Source: Thermoguttaceae bacterium (GTDB taxonomy: Bacteria > Planctomycetota > Planctomycetia > Pirellulales > Thermoguttaceae). Taken from it: 38,186 nt of DNA. A program made the translations under genes and the position numbers. Shown in pieces: positions 30,630 through 35,116 of the stretch (within the stretch, counting starts at the first letter, position 1; each line of letters opens with the position of its first letter). Location: positions 1-38,186 of the forward strand of contig JAQVKF010000012.1 in the NCBI GenBank assembly GCA_028694795.1. Direction: 5' to 3'. Below the pieces are notes generated by a model. It was not told where the DNA came from, ran no database searches, and saw only the letters and a program-made list of their open reading frames with translations.

Positions 30630-32174
30630 TTAGGCAAGACTTGCAGCGGCGGCGATTCGATTCATCGCCATCAAGAAGGCTTCGGCACTCGCTTGGATGG
30701 TGTCGGTCGAAACGCCACGGCCGCGGTAGGTACTGCCATGGTAATCAATTTCGACGTTGACCTCACCTTGAGCGTCTTTTCCGACCGTCACGCTATGCAC
30801 ACGAAATTCTTTGCATTGACCGGTTAATCCGGTCAGCTTTTCGAGCGCCAGAAAAACCGAATCAATGGGACCATCGCCCTCTTCTGTCTCGACTTTGTGC
30901 AGCGTTTCTCCACAGCGAACCCACAATATGGTGTGTGGATGTCGATCTGAACCACACTCCAACGCATACCGCTCGAGCGTCCAAGTTTTCGCGTCGGTAT
31001 TGCGCACCTGTTTCTCGATAATCGCCACCAAGTCGGCGTCATACATCGTTTTTTTACGGTCCGCGAGTGATTTGAACTTACTCACGACATCGTCGAGTTG
31101 TTCAGAAGTGAGTTGATAACCGAGGTCTTTTGCTCGATCACCAATCGCTGCGCGTCCACTATGTTTGCCCAATACGAGATCGCTTTTCGTTAAACCAACA
31201 TCTTCCGGACGCATGATTTCATACGTCGTCGCATTTCGCAGCATACCCGCTTGGTGAATCCCCGACTCATGAGCAAATGCGTTCTGACCGACAATCGCCT
31301 TGTTCCGCTGCACCTGCATACCGGTGATCCCACTGACAAGACGGCTAGTCGGAACGATTCGTGGGGTCACAATTCCGGTAAAAGCATGGTAAAAATCTTG
31401 TCGCGTGCGAATGGCCATAACGGCTTCTTCCAACGCACAGTTACCCGCACGTTCGCCCAAACCGTTGATCGCGCATTCGATTTGGCCAGCACCCGCCGAA
31501 ACGGCGGCCAAACTATTTGCCACTGCCATGCCCAAATCGTTGTGGCAATGGACGCTAATGACCGCCTGTTCAATATTCTGCACCTGTTGCTTGAGCATGC
31601 GGATCTGGGCGGCAAAAGTATCCGGCGTGGCATATCCGACCGTGTCGGGGATATTGACCGTCGTGGCTCCCGCCGCGATCACCGCTCCGACCACCTCGCA
31701 CAGGAAATCTGGTTCCGTACGACTTGCATCTTCCGGGGAAAATTCGATATCTTCGCAGTATCCCTTGGCGCGTTTGACACCGGCGACCGCGTTTTGAATC
31801 ACCTCTTCCTTCGTCATTCGCAACTTAAACTCGCGATGGATGGGAGAGGTAGCCAGAAAAACATGGATACGTCGCTGTTTGGCCGGTGCGACCGCCTCTC
31901 CCGCGCGATCAATATCGACGTTCACACATCGTGCCAAACCGCAGATCGTCGCACCTTCCACCTCACGCGCTATTTGACGCACAGACTCGAAATCGCCGGG
32001 CGAGGCAATCGGAAAACCCGCCTCAATCACATCAACGCCCAACATGACGAGTGCCCGCGCCACATCCAACTTCTCAGAAAGGTTCATACTTGCGCCCGGG
32101 CATTGCTCGCCATCACGCAACGTTGTATCAAAAATCGTAATCTTACGTGGTGCTTCACTCGTCTCACTCATCAT
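30630..32174 (-). CDS. leuA: 2-isopropylmalate synthase
   Basis: LeuA condenses acetyl-CoA with 2-oxoisovalerate, the first committed step of leucine synthesis. The 514-aa protein (from ATG 32174; the second ATG 32171 is equally possible) has FDTTLRDGEQCPGASM near the N-terminus, the metal-binding HCHNDLGMAVANSL, NGLGERAGNCALEE, and a C-terminal regulatory domain (about 395-514) that in this family binds leucine for feedback inhibition. CAGGAG lies 5-8 nt upstream. The gene stands alone, without leuBCD or ilv genes in the window. It is preceded by a leader with promoter, Leu-codon ORF and intrinsic terminator, suggesting attenuation control as well (inference). Homocitrate or citramalate synthase are related, but the length and motifs fit LeuA best. 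Confidence 0.93.
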   Translation of the reverse strand: MMSETSEAPRKITIFDTTLRDGEQCPGASMNLSEKLDVARALVMLGVDVIEAGFPIASPGDFESVRQIAREVEGATICGLARCVNVDIDRAGEAVAPAKQRRIHVFLATSPIHREFKLRMTKEEVIQNAVAGVKRAKGYCEDIEFSPEDASRTEPDFLCEVVGAVIAAGATTVNIPDTVGYATPDTFAAQIRMLKQQVQNIEQAVISVHCHNDLGMAVANSLAAVSAGAGQIECAINGLGERAGNCALEEAVMAIRTRQDFYHAFTGIVTPRIVPTSRLVSGITGMQVQRNKAIVGQNAFAHESGIHQAGMLRNATTYEIMRPEDVGLTKSDLVLGKHSGRAAIGDRAKDLGYQLTSEQLDDVVSKFKSLADRKKTMYDADLVAIIEKQVRNTDAKTWTLERYALECGSDRHPHTILWVRCGETLHKVETEEGDGPIDSVFLALEKLTGLTGQCKEFRVHSVTVGKDAQGEVNVEIDYHGSTYRGRGVSTDTIQASAEAFLMAMNRIAAAASLA

Positions 32175-32243
32175 CGGTACTCCTGACTGTTCTTGCTTCC
32201 GCTGTAAAATTCGGACTGCTAACGAGAGATCAAATTGGTATAA

Positions 32244-32280
32244 CAAAAAAACTCACATCCCCAAAATGGGGCGTGAGTTT
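32244..32280 (-). terminator. Intrinsic terminator in the leuA leader (attenuator)
   Basis: On the minus strand, AAACTCAC-GCCCC (32280-32268) pairs with GGGG-AT-GTGAGTTT (32262-32249) around ATTTT, followed by a run of T (32250-32244). The stem is 12 bp with a small asymmetry (C against AT). It sits 70 nt before the leuA start and downstream of the leader ORF, so it could abort leuA transcription. Confidence 0.8.
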
Positions 32281-32409
32281 GTTGGATTTCTTTAATTTCT
32301 GGTAGATCGTCTCCGAACTTCTGTCGGGTTGGTCAACCAACAACCATCCCTAAAAAAGTTCCAAGCCCTAGAGAGGGTTTTGCCCCACCTTCTACCCTAT
32401 CCACACACC

Positions 32410-32418
32410 CTCACACCC
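32410..32418 (-). promoter_or_regulatory. Possible antiterminator segment
   Basis: The minus-strand GGGTGTGAG spans the leader ORF stop codon. It can pair with CTCACGCCC (32277-32269), the 5' arm of the leuA leader terminator, over 9 bp with one G-U pair. A ribosome ending translation here would mask it. Confidence 0.5.
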
Positions 32419-32479
32419 TCGCTCCGCTTTGTGCGGAGCCGGTAAGCAGGAGGCTCGTGAATATAGCAAAAGTTCTCAT
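32411..32479 (-). CDS. Putative leucine leader peptide, 22 aa
   Basis: ATG at 32479 opens a 22-codon ORF beginning MRTFAIFTS, followed by three consecutive Leu codons CTC-CTG-CTT (32452-32444), then TGSAQSGARV and TGA. AAGG lies 7 nt before the ATG. A 7-bp hairpin GCTCCGC/GCGGAGC (32439-32433 and 32427-32421) starts five nt after the Leu codons. The layout matches leader peptides that sense charged tRNA-Leu. The start also resembles a short signal peptide, so chance hydrophobic Leu codons are the main alternative. Confidence 0.55.
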   Translation of the reverse strand: MRTFAIFTSLLLTGSAQSGARV

Positions 32480-32524
32480 CGAAAAACCTTGTCCATCGGA
32501 TTAACGAGTTCATACACTCGAAGA

Positions 32525-32553
32525 ATGATACCGTCGTCTACTCTTTTTGTCAA
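32525..32553 (-). promoter_or_regulatory. Near-consensus promoter of the leuA leader
   Basis: Minus strand: TTGACA (32553-32548), exactly 17 nt, then TATCAT (32530-32525). The -35 is perfect and the -10 differs at one base. The predicted start is near 32518, about 39 nt before the leader ORF and 345 nt before leuA. Confidence 0.75.
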
Positions 32554-32701
32554 GCGGCCTACTATTCTGTTTTTTCGGAAACAACCGTCAAAGGACTCTT
32601 TTCGCATTCAATACCATGGCGGTCATTGTTCGATCAACACCGTTGGCTGTGTCGTTTACTGTTTGAAATCTTCTCGCTATAGGCCGAATGCCCCAGGATG
32701 A

Positions 32702-35116
32702 CTAAAACTCGAAGTCCCCGCCGTCCGCCGGGGCCGGTACAGCTGGAGCGGTAGGTGTCGGAGCCGGTGCCGCCGGAGCTGGGGCAGGCTCTGTTACTGG
32801 AGCTTCCGGAGCTGGTACCGCCGGTGCAGGGGCTGCTGCCGGTGGCGTCGCCGTTGGAGCCGAATCGTCAGCATCAAAATCGAAATCGTCCGCCGCCGCA
32901 GGGACCGGAGTGGTAGGTGCCGGAGCTGGTACAGGCTCTGTTGCCGGGGCTTCTGGAGTTGGTGCCGTTGGTGCGGGGGCTGCCGCCGGTGGTGTCGCCG
33001 TTGGAGCCGAATCGTCGGCATCAAAATCGAAATCGTCCGATGCGGGTTTCGTACTTGCGGCAGCCGCCTCGGTCACACGGGCTGGCGGAAATTTCTCCTG
33101 GTTCGTTTTGAGCGTATCTTTCGGATCTTGACGCGGTGCTGCCTCGGAGGTTGCCTCTGCCGGTTTTGTGTCCACTGCGGCGGCCTCCGCCGGAGCGGCC
33201 GGTGTTTCTACCGGTTTGACGGGATTTGCCGCAAGTTGGGCCGCTACCTCTTTACCGACCGATTCCGTCCAAAGCCACTCGACTAACAGATCAAGCTGTT
33301 TTTCCGTGATCAGATTCTTTTCAGGATTCGTCGCGTCAACAAAATACGCTGGCATCCGATCGTTATGACCGTTGTAAAAACGCGGTTCATCCGGATTCGC
33401 GATGAACGCCTTGAGCCACGCCTTCGAACCGTAACCGGTGAGGTCCTGCGTTTTGACCGTCGAGGTTTTACGCACACGCTTGCCAGCCGCCGCGTCACGC
33501 TCCGCAATTTGAGTATCATAGAACGGATGGCAACTATTCGTACAGGTGAACTGTTTGGCCAACGCAACGGTTTCGTCCGGAATCGGACCACCGGGAGCCG
33601 CAAATCGTTCGTCCGAAAGAAGTTTCATAAACTTCGCAAAGTCCGCCTTGTTCTGTGCGACATCCTCCGCCGTGATCGCGAGTTCCTCATCATAATCGTC
33701 GCTGTCCGGATCGCTGACCGTTAAAAACTGCGATTCGAGCGTTTTCATGAATTGGACCATGCTGCCATCTTCCGCATATTTGGTACCACCGAAGTAACGG
33801 GGCGACACAAGCTGTTTTGGATCGTTCAAGCCAGTCAACCATTCTTGCGACGCAAAACCGTGCAAATTCGGTGCGGACGGTTTCGGTGTTGTCAGCCCCT
33901 TGCCATCGAGATCCGTATATTCGTGACACGATACACAGTGTTGTTTGAATAGTCGCGGTCCCATTGTTTGTGGATCGTTCCAAAGCAGTTCGAGCGCCCC
34001 ATCAGACGGGATTCCCGCTACCTGCGCTAACTCGACCACTCGTTCGGAGGCCGCCTTCTCAACCGCCAGCGATGCTTGGAAATCGGCGTTGATTTTGTCC
34101 TTTTCCCACAGTTGGAACGTCAAAAATGTGATGCCAACGAGCATGACCGCCGTCGCGCCCACCACCACAAAGTGACCAATCAACCAACGAGCAATCCACG
34201 GTGCAAGTAGATAAAATCCAATCACACAACCGGGAATCACGAAGATCGGGAAAATCTTGTAATCACCACCGAAGAAGTGAGCGAACTCATACACACCGGC
34301 TAAATACCAATGCGGACGCGCCGCGGCAAACGGTTCAGACGGATCACGTGGTGAACCGAGATGCGTCCCTCCTTGGTACCAAACAAACAGCACCAAAAGA
34401 ATCGCCACACACAGCCATACCAGACCATGGATATTCCACCCCGTGCTTTTCTCCGGTTCACGGTGCAACATCTCCGCCTCGCGGATCGCCGCAATCCGAC
34501 AGAACCACCAATGGGCGACCGCACAACCGATAAAACCGACCACAAACAGACCAACATGGAACGCTTGCAAACGTGCCAGCGTCATCTGCGTCATCTGTGG
34601 ACCACCTACGGCCAATTTGTACAGATAACCGCCCACCCAGGGAATCATCTGCAAAAATTTCGTGCGTACATCGGTACTCCAATAACCATTTTGCGTCCAG
34701 GTGAGCAGATCGCCCGTGATATGCGACGCCAAAACAGCCAGCGACATGCCAACCGCCGACCAAAAAACCAACTCTCGCGGTGCTCGATATTTGCCCATGA
34801 GTATCAAATAGAGCAAATAGGCCCAGATTTCCGCTAAAAGCAGTTGGGCCGTCCAGAAATGCAGTCCGTGCAGTAGCCAACCGCCGCACACCTCGTATTT
34901 CAGAAAGTAAATGCTCTCCCACGCCGAGTTCGCACTCGCTCCGTAACCCATCCAAATGAAAAAGCCAAATATCACCTGGAGAATAAACGTAAACACGATC
35001 AGGCTTGGCATGACACCTAAGCCAGGTTTGACACCAAACGGAATCCGCTGAGTTTCGCCAAAAAGTTCATTCCAACCGAGACGACCCGCCGCCCACTTCA
35101 CACAGGTTTTCCACAT
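32702..35116 (-). CDS. Cytochrome b fused to a c-type cytochrome with a repeat tail
   Basis: The 804-aa protein joins a complete cytochrome b (about residues 1-360, roughly eight membrane helices) to c-type domains (CVSCH near 405; CTNSCH near 535) and a Pro/Ala-rich tail with two DDFDFDADDSAPTATPPAAA copies. It would move electrons from quinol to cytochrome c in the membrane with the Rieske protein encoded just upstream. In helix D, His187 and His202 keep the haem spacing. In helix B, His86 aligns with the first ligand, but the position 14 residues later is Tyr100, not His. The Qo-site PEWY motif reads PHWY, and the second haem c motif is CX3CH. The first ATG overlaps the Rieske stop by one base, and AAGGAGG lies about 7 nt upstream. 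Confidence 0.85.
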   Translation of the reverse strand: MWKTCVKWAAGRLGWNELFGETQRIPFGVKPGLGVMPSLIVFTFILQVIFGFFIWMGYGASANSAWESIYFLKYEVCGGWLLHGLHFWTAQLLLAEIWAYLLYLILMGKYRAPRELVFWSAVGMSLAVLASHITGDLLTWTQNGYWSTDVRTKFLQMIPWVGGYLYKLAVGGPQMTQMTLARLQAFHVGLFVVGFIGCAVAHWWFCRIAAIREAEMLHREPEKSTGWNIHGLVWLCVAILLVLFVWYQGGTHLGSPRDPSEPFAAARPHWYLAGVYEFAHFFGGDYKIFPIFVIPGCVIGFYLLAPWIARWLIGHFVVVGATAVMLVGITFLTFQLWEKDKINADFQASLAVEKAASERVVELAQVAGIPSDGALELLWNDPQTMGPRLFKQHCVSCHEYTDLDGKGLTTPKPSAPNLHGFASQEWLTGLNDPKQLVSPRYFGGTKYAEDGSMVQFMKTLESQFLTVSDPDSDDYDEELAITAEDVAQNKADFAKFMKLLSDERFAAPGGPIPDETVALAKQFTCTNSCHPFYDTQIAERDAAAGKRVRKTSTVKTQDLTGYGSKAWLKAFIANPDEPRFYNGHNDRMPAYFVDATNPEKNLITEKQLDLLVEWLWTESVGKEVAAQLAANPVKPVETPAAPAEAAAVDTKPAEATSEAAPRQDPKDTLKTNQEKFPPARVTEAAAASTKPASDDFDFDADDSAPTATPPAAAPAPTAPTPEAPATEPVPAPAPTTPVPAAADDFDFDADDSAPTATPPAAAPAPAVPAPEAPVTEPAPAPAAPAPTPTAPAVPAPADGGDFEF
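32760..33041 (-). repeat. Tandem 147-nt coding repeat in the cytochrome tail
   Basis: The plus-strand string CGAATCGTC(A/G)GCATCAAAAT occurs at 32861 and 33008, 147 nt (49 codons) apart, with strongly similar flanks. It encodes the Pro/Ala-rich linker plus DDFDFDADDSAPTATPP; the C-terminus ends in a related GGDFEF. Confidence 0.75.

Follow-up and report, generated by a model that had tools for sequence, protein, structure and literature searches.

The region analyzed here belongs to a 38,186-nt stretch of DNA (the window) from a Thermoguttaceae bacterium (GCA_028694795.1, contig JAQVKF010000012.1). In the source genome, PF07596 (SBP_bac_10), a family typical of planctomycetes, was identified at 41 places, compared with none in 14 controls; PSD1 (PF07587) was not found in this genome, and the controls were without a match as well. 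On the minus strand of the window, a gene encoding cytochrome b is followed by leuA, and the elements of a leader region lie between them on the same strand (Table 1). The leuA product was assigned as 2-isopropylmalate synthase on the basis of TIGR00973 and PF08502 (LeuA_dimer), and the nearest LeuA in the genomes compared, all from outside its genus, is ~70% identical to it. The C-terminal tail of the cytochrome b protein is long, rich in Pro and Ala, and includes two copies of DDFDFDADDSAPTATPPAAAPAP (positions 32705 to 33200, minus strand).

Table 1. Features of the leuA leader region in the window and examples of related features at other loci
Feature	Position	Strand	Remark
Sigma-70-like promoter TTGACA-17-TATCAT (predicted)	32525..32553	-	11/12 consensus matches
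Promoter boxes	TTGACA 32553-32548; 17-nt spacer; TATCAT 32530-32525	-
Leader ORF, 22 codons, MRTFAIFTSLLLTGSAQSGARV then stop	32411..32479	-	Leu-rich ORFs at the equivalent position in relatives
Run of three Leu codons, CTC CTG CTT (codons 10-12); proposed site of sensing	32444..32452	-	in folding, a ribosome placed here melts the terminator
7-bp hairpin GCTCCGC-ACAAA-GCGGAGC within the leader ORF	32421..32439	-	inner part of the 1:2 stem
1:2 stem (protector), Leu-codon region paired with stop-codon region	32397..32463	-	minimum-energy fold ~-37 kcal/mol
Segment 2, 5' half of the antiterminator	32399..32418	-	core GGGTGTGAG, 32418-32410
Segment 3, 3' half of the antiterminator and terminator 5' arm	32269..32287	-	core CTCACGCCC, 32277-32269
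Intrinsic terminator AACTCACGCCCC-ATTTT-GGGGATGTGAGTT, 7 T	32245..32279	-	hairpin -17.6 kcal/mol
Structured spacer	32288..32398	-	129 nt from the 9-bp core of segment 2 to the terminator stem
leuA, 2-isopropylmalate synthase	30630..32174	-	TIGR00973/PF08502; SD AGGAG before the ATG
Cytochrome b gene	32702..35116	-	upstream of leuA, co-directional
DAHP synthase leaders with the same terminator arrangement	L196, L199(-), L200(-), L205(-), L204, L207(-)		matches around 1501-1617
tRNA-Leu(UAA) genes (examples)	L003:3113-3199, L006:2224-2308, L012:3098-3184, L016:1330-1416(-) and others
Second short ORF (examples)	L003:1362-1412, L016:3083-3133(-), L020:1317-1367, L030:3099-3149(-), L058:711-761		~40 more

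An earlier note, made from the letters of the window, had proposed a leucine-responsive attenuator at this site, and the parts it named were all found at the stated places: the promoter, the 22-codon ORF with three consecutive Leu codons, the 7-bp hairpin just after them, and a leuA start codon exactly 70 nt past the T run of the terminator. Three promoter-like sites were seen in the region versus 1.0 expected, and an SD-like AAGG lies 7 nt upstream of the leader ATG. An ORF with consecutive codons for the pathway product thus precedes leuA, and an intrinsic terminator separates the two. The note had also described 9-nt pairing between a segment at the ORF stop codon and the 5' arm of the terminator. 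The complementarity of GGGTGTGAG, which overlaps the TGA stop codon (32413 to 32411), to CTCACGCCC is correct, but the antiterminator extends beyond 9 bp, continuing past the core through UGU/ACA and UGGAU/AUCCA. In addition to what had been described, the Leu codons themselves were found to lie within a long stem that also contains the stop-codon segment.

Some further elements were seen around the leader ORF. At positions 32420 to 32404 the antiterminator core occurs as a tandem duplicate, GAGGGTGTG-AGGGTGTG; the second copy occupies the place that is canonical among the relatives, and it too could pair with CACGCCC. A 38-codon ORF with one Leu codon (32513 to 32397, minus strand) overlaps the leader start and begins close to the predicted transcription start. 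The stop codon of a short MDKVFR frame (32496 to 32476, minus strand) overlaps the leader ATG (ATGA) and could couple translation.

The leuA upstream regions of the order were screened with a detector that calls for at least three Leu in seven codons and for an ORF stop at a segment that lies upstream of a terminator and is complementary to it. The complete architecture, here called att-1, was present in 67 of the 146 regions, including the window, and in none of 438 block-shuffled controls; because leuA leaders had been used to tune the detector, these counts are descriptive and not blind. Background DNA of these loci (1.04 Mb, both strands) contained 71 terminator-like sites, one of which was a weak case, with an ORF ending at a complementary segment and at least three Leu in seven codons, and none of which had a Leu run. 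The earlier note had made its reading hang on conservation among relatives, and conservation was found. Leaders such as MNKNLSSLLPLLLLALSGPRP and MNRVLNLLPLLLLALTERKA, each ending at a stop codon, are located 100 to 500 nt upstream of leuA in many families, and in most relatives a promoter of the form TTGACC-17-TANANT lies just upstream of the leader ORF, in the same place as in the window. The canonical att-1 sequence is GGCC-TAG-GGTTCG, in which TAG is the leader stop inside the antiterminator, followed after ~30 nt by CGAACCCCAAGGCC...GGCCTTGGGG-TTTTTTT. The Leu codons, the position of the stop, and the pairing with the terminator are conserved, whereas the spacer is not. The rare Leu codons UUA and CUA together reach 0.27 in the leaders compared with 0.03 in leuA.

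The two pairing segments vary together, the compensatory pattern that the note had proposed to look for. Deviant members differ on both sides at once (GGGTGTAT/ATACACCC, GGGGATGTGT/ACACATTCCC, and GGGTGTGAG/CTCACGCCC of the window), and permuting stop-codon segments against terminators lowers the pairing with a z of 6.3, a value that overstates the significance because the sequences are related. For segment 2 of the window, the best partner is its own terminator, ahead of all 66 foreign ones, and the same holds in reverse. A covariance model (R1), built from 45 relatives with the window excluded, detects att-1 in 93 of 147 leuA-containing sources, 45 of which trained it.

Three other observations were made in this survey: (i) in L008, L019, L026, L102, and L129, the leader ATG is only a few nucleotides past the -10 box, suggesting leaderless leader-peptide mRNAs; (ii) a weak match to the att-1 model (E 0.002) was located just upstream of a citramalate-synthase-like leuA paralogue (G023:C1:3614953-3615059); and (iii) a LeuA search of the genome contigs gave matches at three Firmicutes leuA loci only.

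The leader of the window was folded with the ribosome footprint masked codon by codon, and the probabilities of the terminator core and the antiterminator were read out. The unconstrained leader forms the long 1:2 stem plus the terminator, the core of which has a probability of 1.00 without a ribosome in equilibrium folding. Placing the A site on codons 10, 11, and 12 (Leu) lowers the terminator core to 0.49, 0.08, and 0.12, respectively, and the antiterminator reaches 0.50, 0.92, and 0.87; a smaller footprint gives terminator core values of 0.03, 0.35, and 0.10. The terminator is closed (~1) for A sites 2 to 5 and 17 to 23 and open only about codons 8 to 16. This closed-open-closed behavior was seen in none of 300 dinucleotide shuffles of the sequence between the start codon and the terminator. 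Constrained folding gives, in silico, the switch proposed in the earlier note, in which a stall at the Leu codons would free the stop-codon segment and a ribosome at the stop would restore the terminator. The open interval has its center at the Leu codons but is wider than these three, so the model shows compatibility with such sensing rather than codon precision.

In a model of the nascent RNA, before synthesis of the 3' arm of the terminator, segment 2 of the window is paired with segment 3 at 0.99 under a stall at Leu. In 66 of the 67 loci, a ribosome stalled mid-run is accompanied by pairing between the stop-codon segment and the 5' arm of the terminator; this pairing is zero by construction for a ribosome at the stop codon. 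The nascent antiterminator also forms without a ribosome (mean of 0.68 over the loci and 0.79 in the window), and the untranslated state is therefore uncertain. Full-length equilibrium folding gave clear switching in only 17 of the 67 loci, and the switch of the window is among the clearest of all members.

The detector that picked out the other 66 loci also recovered the window, which is placed in the att-1 class by its architecture and position; homology is likely. However, it lies at the extreme of the class. Its spacer, which the note had put at about 130 nt and called long, measures 129 nt versus 20 to 67 nt (mostly ~30) in the other 66 members, and 11 codons separate its last Leu codon from the stop, compared with at most 9, and mostly 6, in the others. 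The leader has only three Leu codons, none of them UUA or CUA, and they form the weakest Leu run among the members. R1 gave no match to the window (L002) at E values up to 0.05 and none in G000. Together with the two short ORFs that overlap the leader start, these features count against an attenuator. Alternatively, the element could be a relic or altered form of the leuA attenuator of the order that no longer exerts tight leucine control, for example if the overlapping 38-codon ORF, which starts so near the predicted transcription start, is translated. The long spacer, the weak Leu run, and the common Leu codons would fit such a relic, as would a weak CCCTCTCTAGGG hairpin (-4.2 kcal/mol; 32380 to 32345, minus strand) that stands shortly before TTTTTT at the terminator distance of the relatives and is perhaps, speculatively, a decayed older terminator. 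However, the switch is intact in folding, the pairing segments have changed jointly, and the SD-like AAGG precedes the 22-codon frame, all of which make loss of control improbable.

It could also be argued that the hairpin and T run are an ordinary terminator of the upstream cytochrome b/Rieske genes, an end of the cytochrome transcript that the note had allowed for, and that the Leu ORF is there by chance. The cytochrome b gene is co-directional with leuA, and no further terminator-like site was found between the two. However, a strong predicted promoter lies between the cytochrome b genes and the terminator, the 5' arm of which is matched to the stop-codon segment of the leader, and even a much weaker coincidence arose at only ~1 in 71 terminator-like sites. 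In many relatives, moreover, the upstream neighbor is on the opposite strand (the nearest long upstream frame in 29 of 54 cases, by crude frame calls), and the arrangement is kept all the same. We consider this explanation quite improbable. A protein- or ligand-sensing leader (a T-box, a riboswitch, or a LEU-like element) that merely resembles an attenuator is the least probable reading: the spacer is indeed long and structured, and the leuA leader of actinobacteria appears not to use classical attenuation (PMC1262725), but no Rfam family apart from tRNA genes was detected in the window or in 20 relatives, and the relatives keep the Leu codons, stop position, and terminator pairing but not the spacer.

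Given its anatomy, the same architecture in relatives, pairing segments that change jointly, and the switching seen in silico, the element is very probably a ribosome-mediated (leader-peptide) attenuator of leuA transcription. Initiation by RNA polymerase would occur at the predicted promoter, and a ribosome would translate the 22-codon leader. When charged tRNA-Leu is scarce, the ribosome would stall at CTC-CTG-CTT and open the 1:2 stem; the stop-codon segment could then base-pair with the 5' arm of the terminator, and transcription would enter leuA. When leucine is sufficient, the ribosome would reach the stop codon and cover segment 2, the terminator would form, and transcription would end before leuA.

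In 33 of the 146 loci, a tRNA-Leu(UAA) gene is located shortly downstream of leuA. The leader contains UUA in 21 of 22 tRNA-linked loci versus 8 of 32 unlinked ones; within the family of the window, this codon is present in 15/15 linked and 1/5 unlinked leaders (p 0.001), and outside it in 6/7 and 7/27, respectively (p 0.007). Between att-1 and leuA, 45 of the 146 loci have a second short, mostly ATG-initiated ORF with the conserved pattern (T/S)RA(W/R)L(V/A)L(P/R)xP(T/A) (RAWLVLPxPT for short), followed by a GCCGACC-GGTCGGC hairpin that lacks a T run. Its variation is synonymous, which speaks for translation, and the product is possibly an arrest peptide or a second leader. A model of this peptide, run over 199 genomes of the phylum, matched only in a member of the family of the window. 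The window itself has neither the tRNA-Leu(UAA) gene nor a UUA leader codon, and the second leader peptide is absent from it by profile. The sequence AGGGATGGTTGTTGG in its spacer loosely resembles the second peptide.

Beyond the order, R1 matches leuA upstream regions in another family of the class and in one more distant family. Unexpectedly, R1 matches were also obtained before DAHP synthase genes of other families in the phylum, and there the leaders are Phe- and Tyr-rich (NGFYFEYFYFAWRRPGRRGAA and MNVRNASGYYFYSFSYPWRDPGLRELT, each ending at a stop codon). The amino acid of the leader thus follows the pathway (Leu with leuA and Phe/Tyr with DAHP synthase), which strongly supports codon-sensing leaders in the phylum. 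No attenuator was found upstream of hisG or DAHP synthase in the genome of the window. A wider scheme may be put forward tentatively, although we hold it to be somewhat less probable than not in its entirety: Planctomycetota would have phylum-wide leader-peptide attenuators, for leuA (Leu) and for DAHP synthase (Phe/Tyr), that originated outside the known lineages; the leuA unit of the order would sense the charging of its own tRNA-Leu(UAA) through the UUA leader, with RAWLVLPxPT and its hairpin as an added control; and the window would represent a reduced variant with a long spacer, from which the tRNA, UUA, and second peptide had been lost together.

The proposed attenuator represents a known mechanism in a lineage in which it was apparently undescribed, and it was found to be widespread in the phylum. 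The earlier note knew of no description of this design in the lineage; likewise, no paper on attenuation or leader peptides in Planctomycetes was found in the open-access literature, which, covering open access only, is weak evidence. The best-documented cases of leader-peptide attenuation come from Proteobacteria, Actinobacteria, and some Firmicutes. The findings extend this mechanism to a phylum with poorly known regulation and give exact, testable sequences in many genomes. The linkage of tRNA-Leu(UAA) to UUA codons and the second leader peptide suggest a feedback loop between tRNA gene and attenuator, undescribed in the open-access literature searched, and these by-products are of more interest than the attenuator itself.

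Leader-peptide attenuation is textbook knowledge for the his, trp, leu, and ilv operons. The window shares with proteobacterial leuL (Rfam Leu_leader) and with the his, trp, and ilv attenuators a short peptide with consecutive end-product codons and mutually exclusive antiterminator and terminator structures for which the position of the ribosome is the signal. It differs from them in that the leader stop codon forms part of the 5' half of the antiterminator, which pairs straight with the terminator arm, and in its 129-nt spacer. The Rfam leucine leader families gave no gathering-score match in the window, and a permissive scan of positions 32100 to 32720 gave only an irrelevant weak match; T-box and riboswitch families had no Rfam match in the window. 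According to a 2010 survey, the only groups with demonstrated leader-peptide systems had been Proteobacteria and Actinobacteria, to which the survey added hisS of Firmicutes (PMC2965389). The LEU element of actinobacterial leuA likewise has a run of Leu codons before leuA, but its mutations did not fit classical attenuation, and it has a pseudoknot over the Shine-Dalgarno site and no terminator (PMC1262725). The Leu/phe leader (Lactococcus) and Termite-leu motifs, to judge from their names and the table that lists them, are also candidate leucine-related leaders, from other lineages (PMC2864571), but neither had an Rfam match in the window or its relatives. From the att-1 leaders of the order and phylum, the window differs in lacking an R1 sequence match and a UUA codon and in its long spacer and fewer Leu codons, and from many of them also in lacking the second leader peptide and the tRNA gene. 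Nevertheless, it has in common with them the position before leuA, the promoter, the Leu ORF, the stop codon inside the antiterminator, the terminator, and the switching logic.
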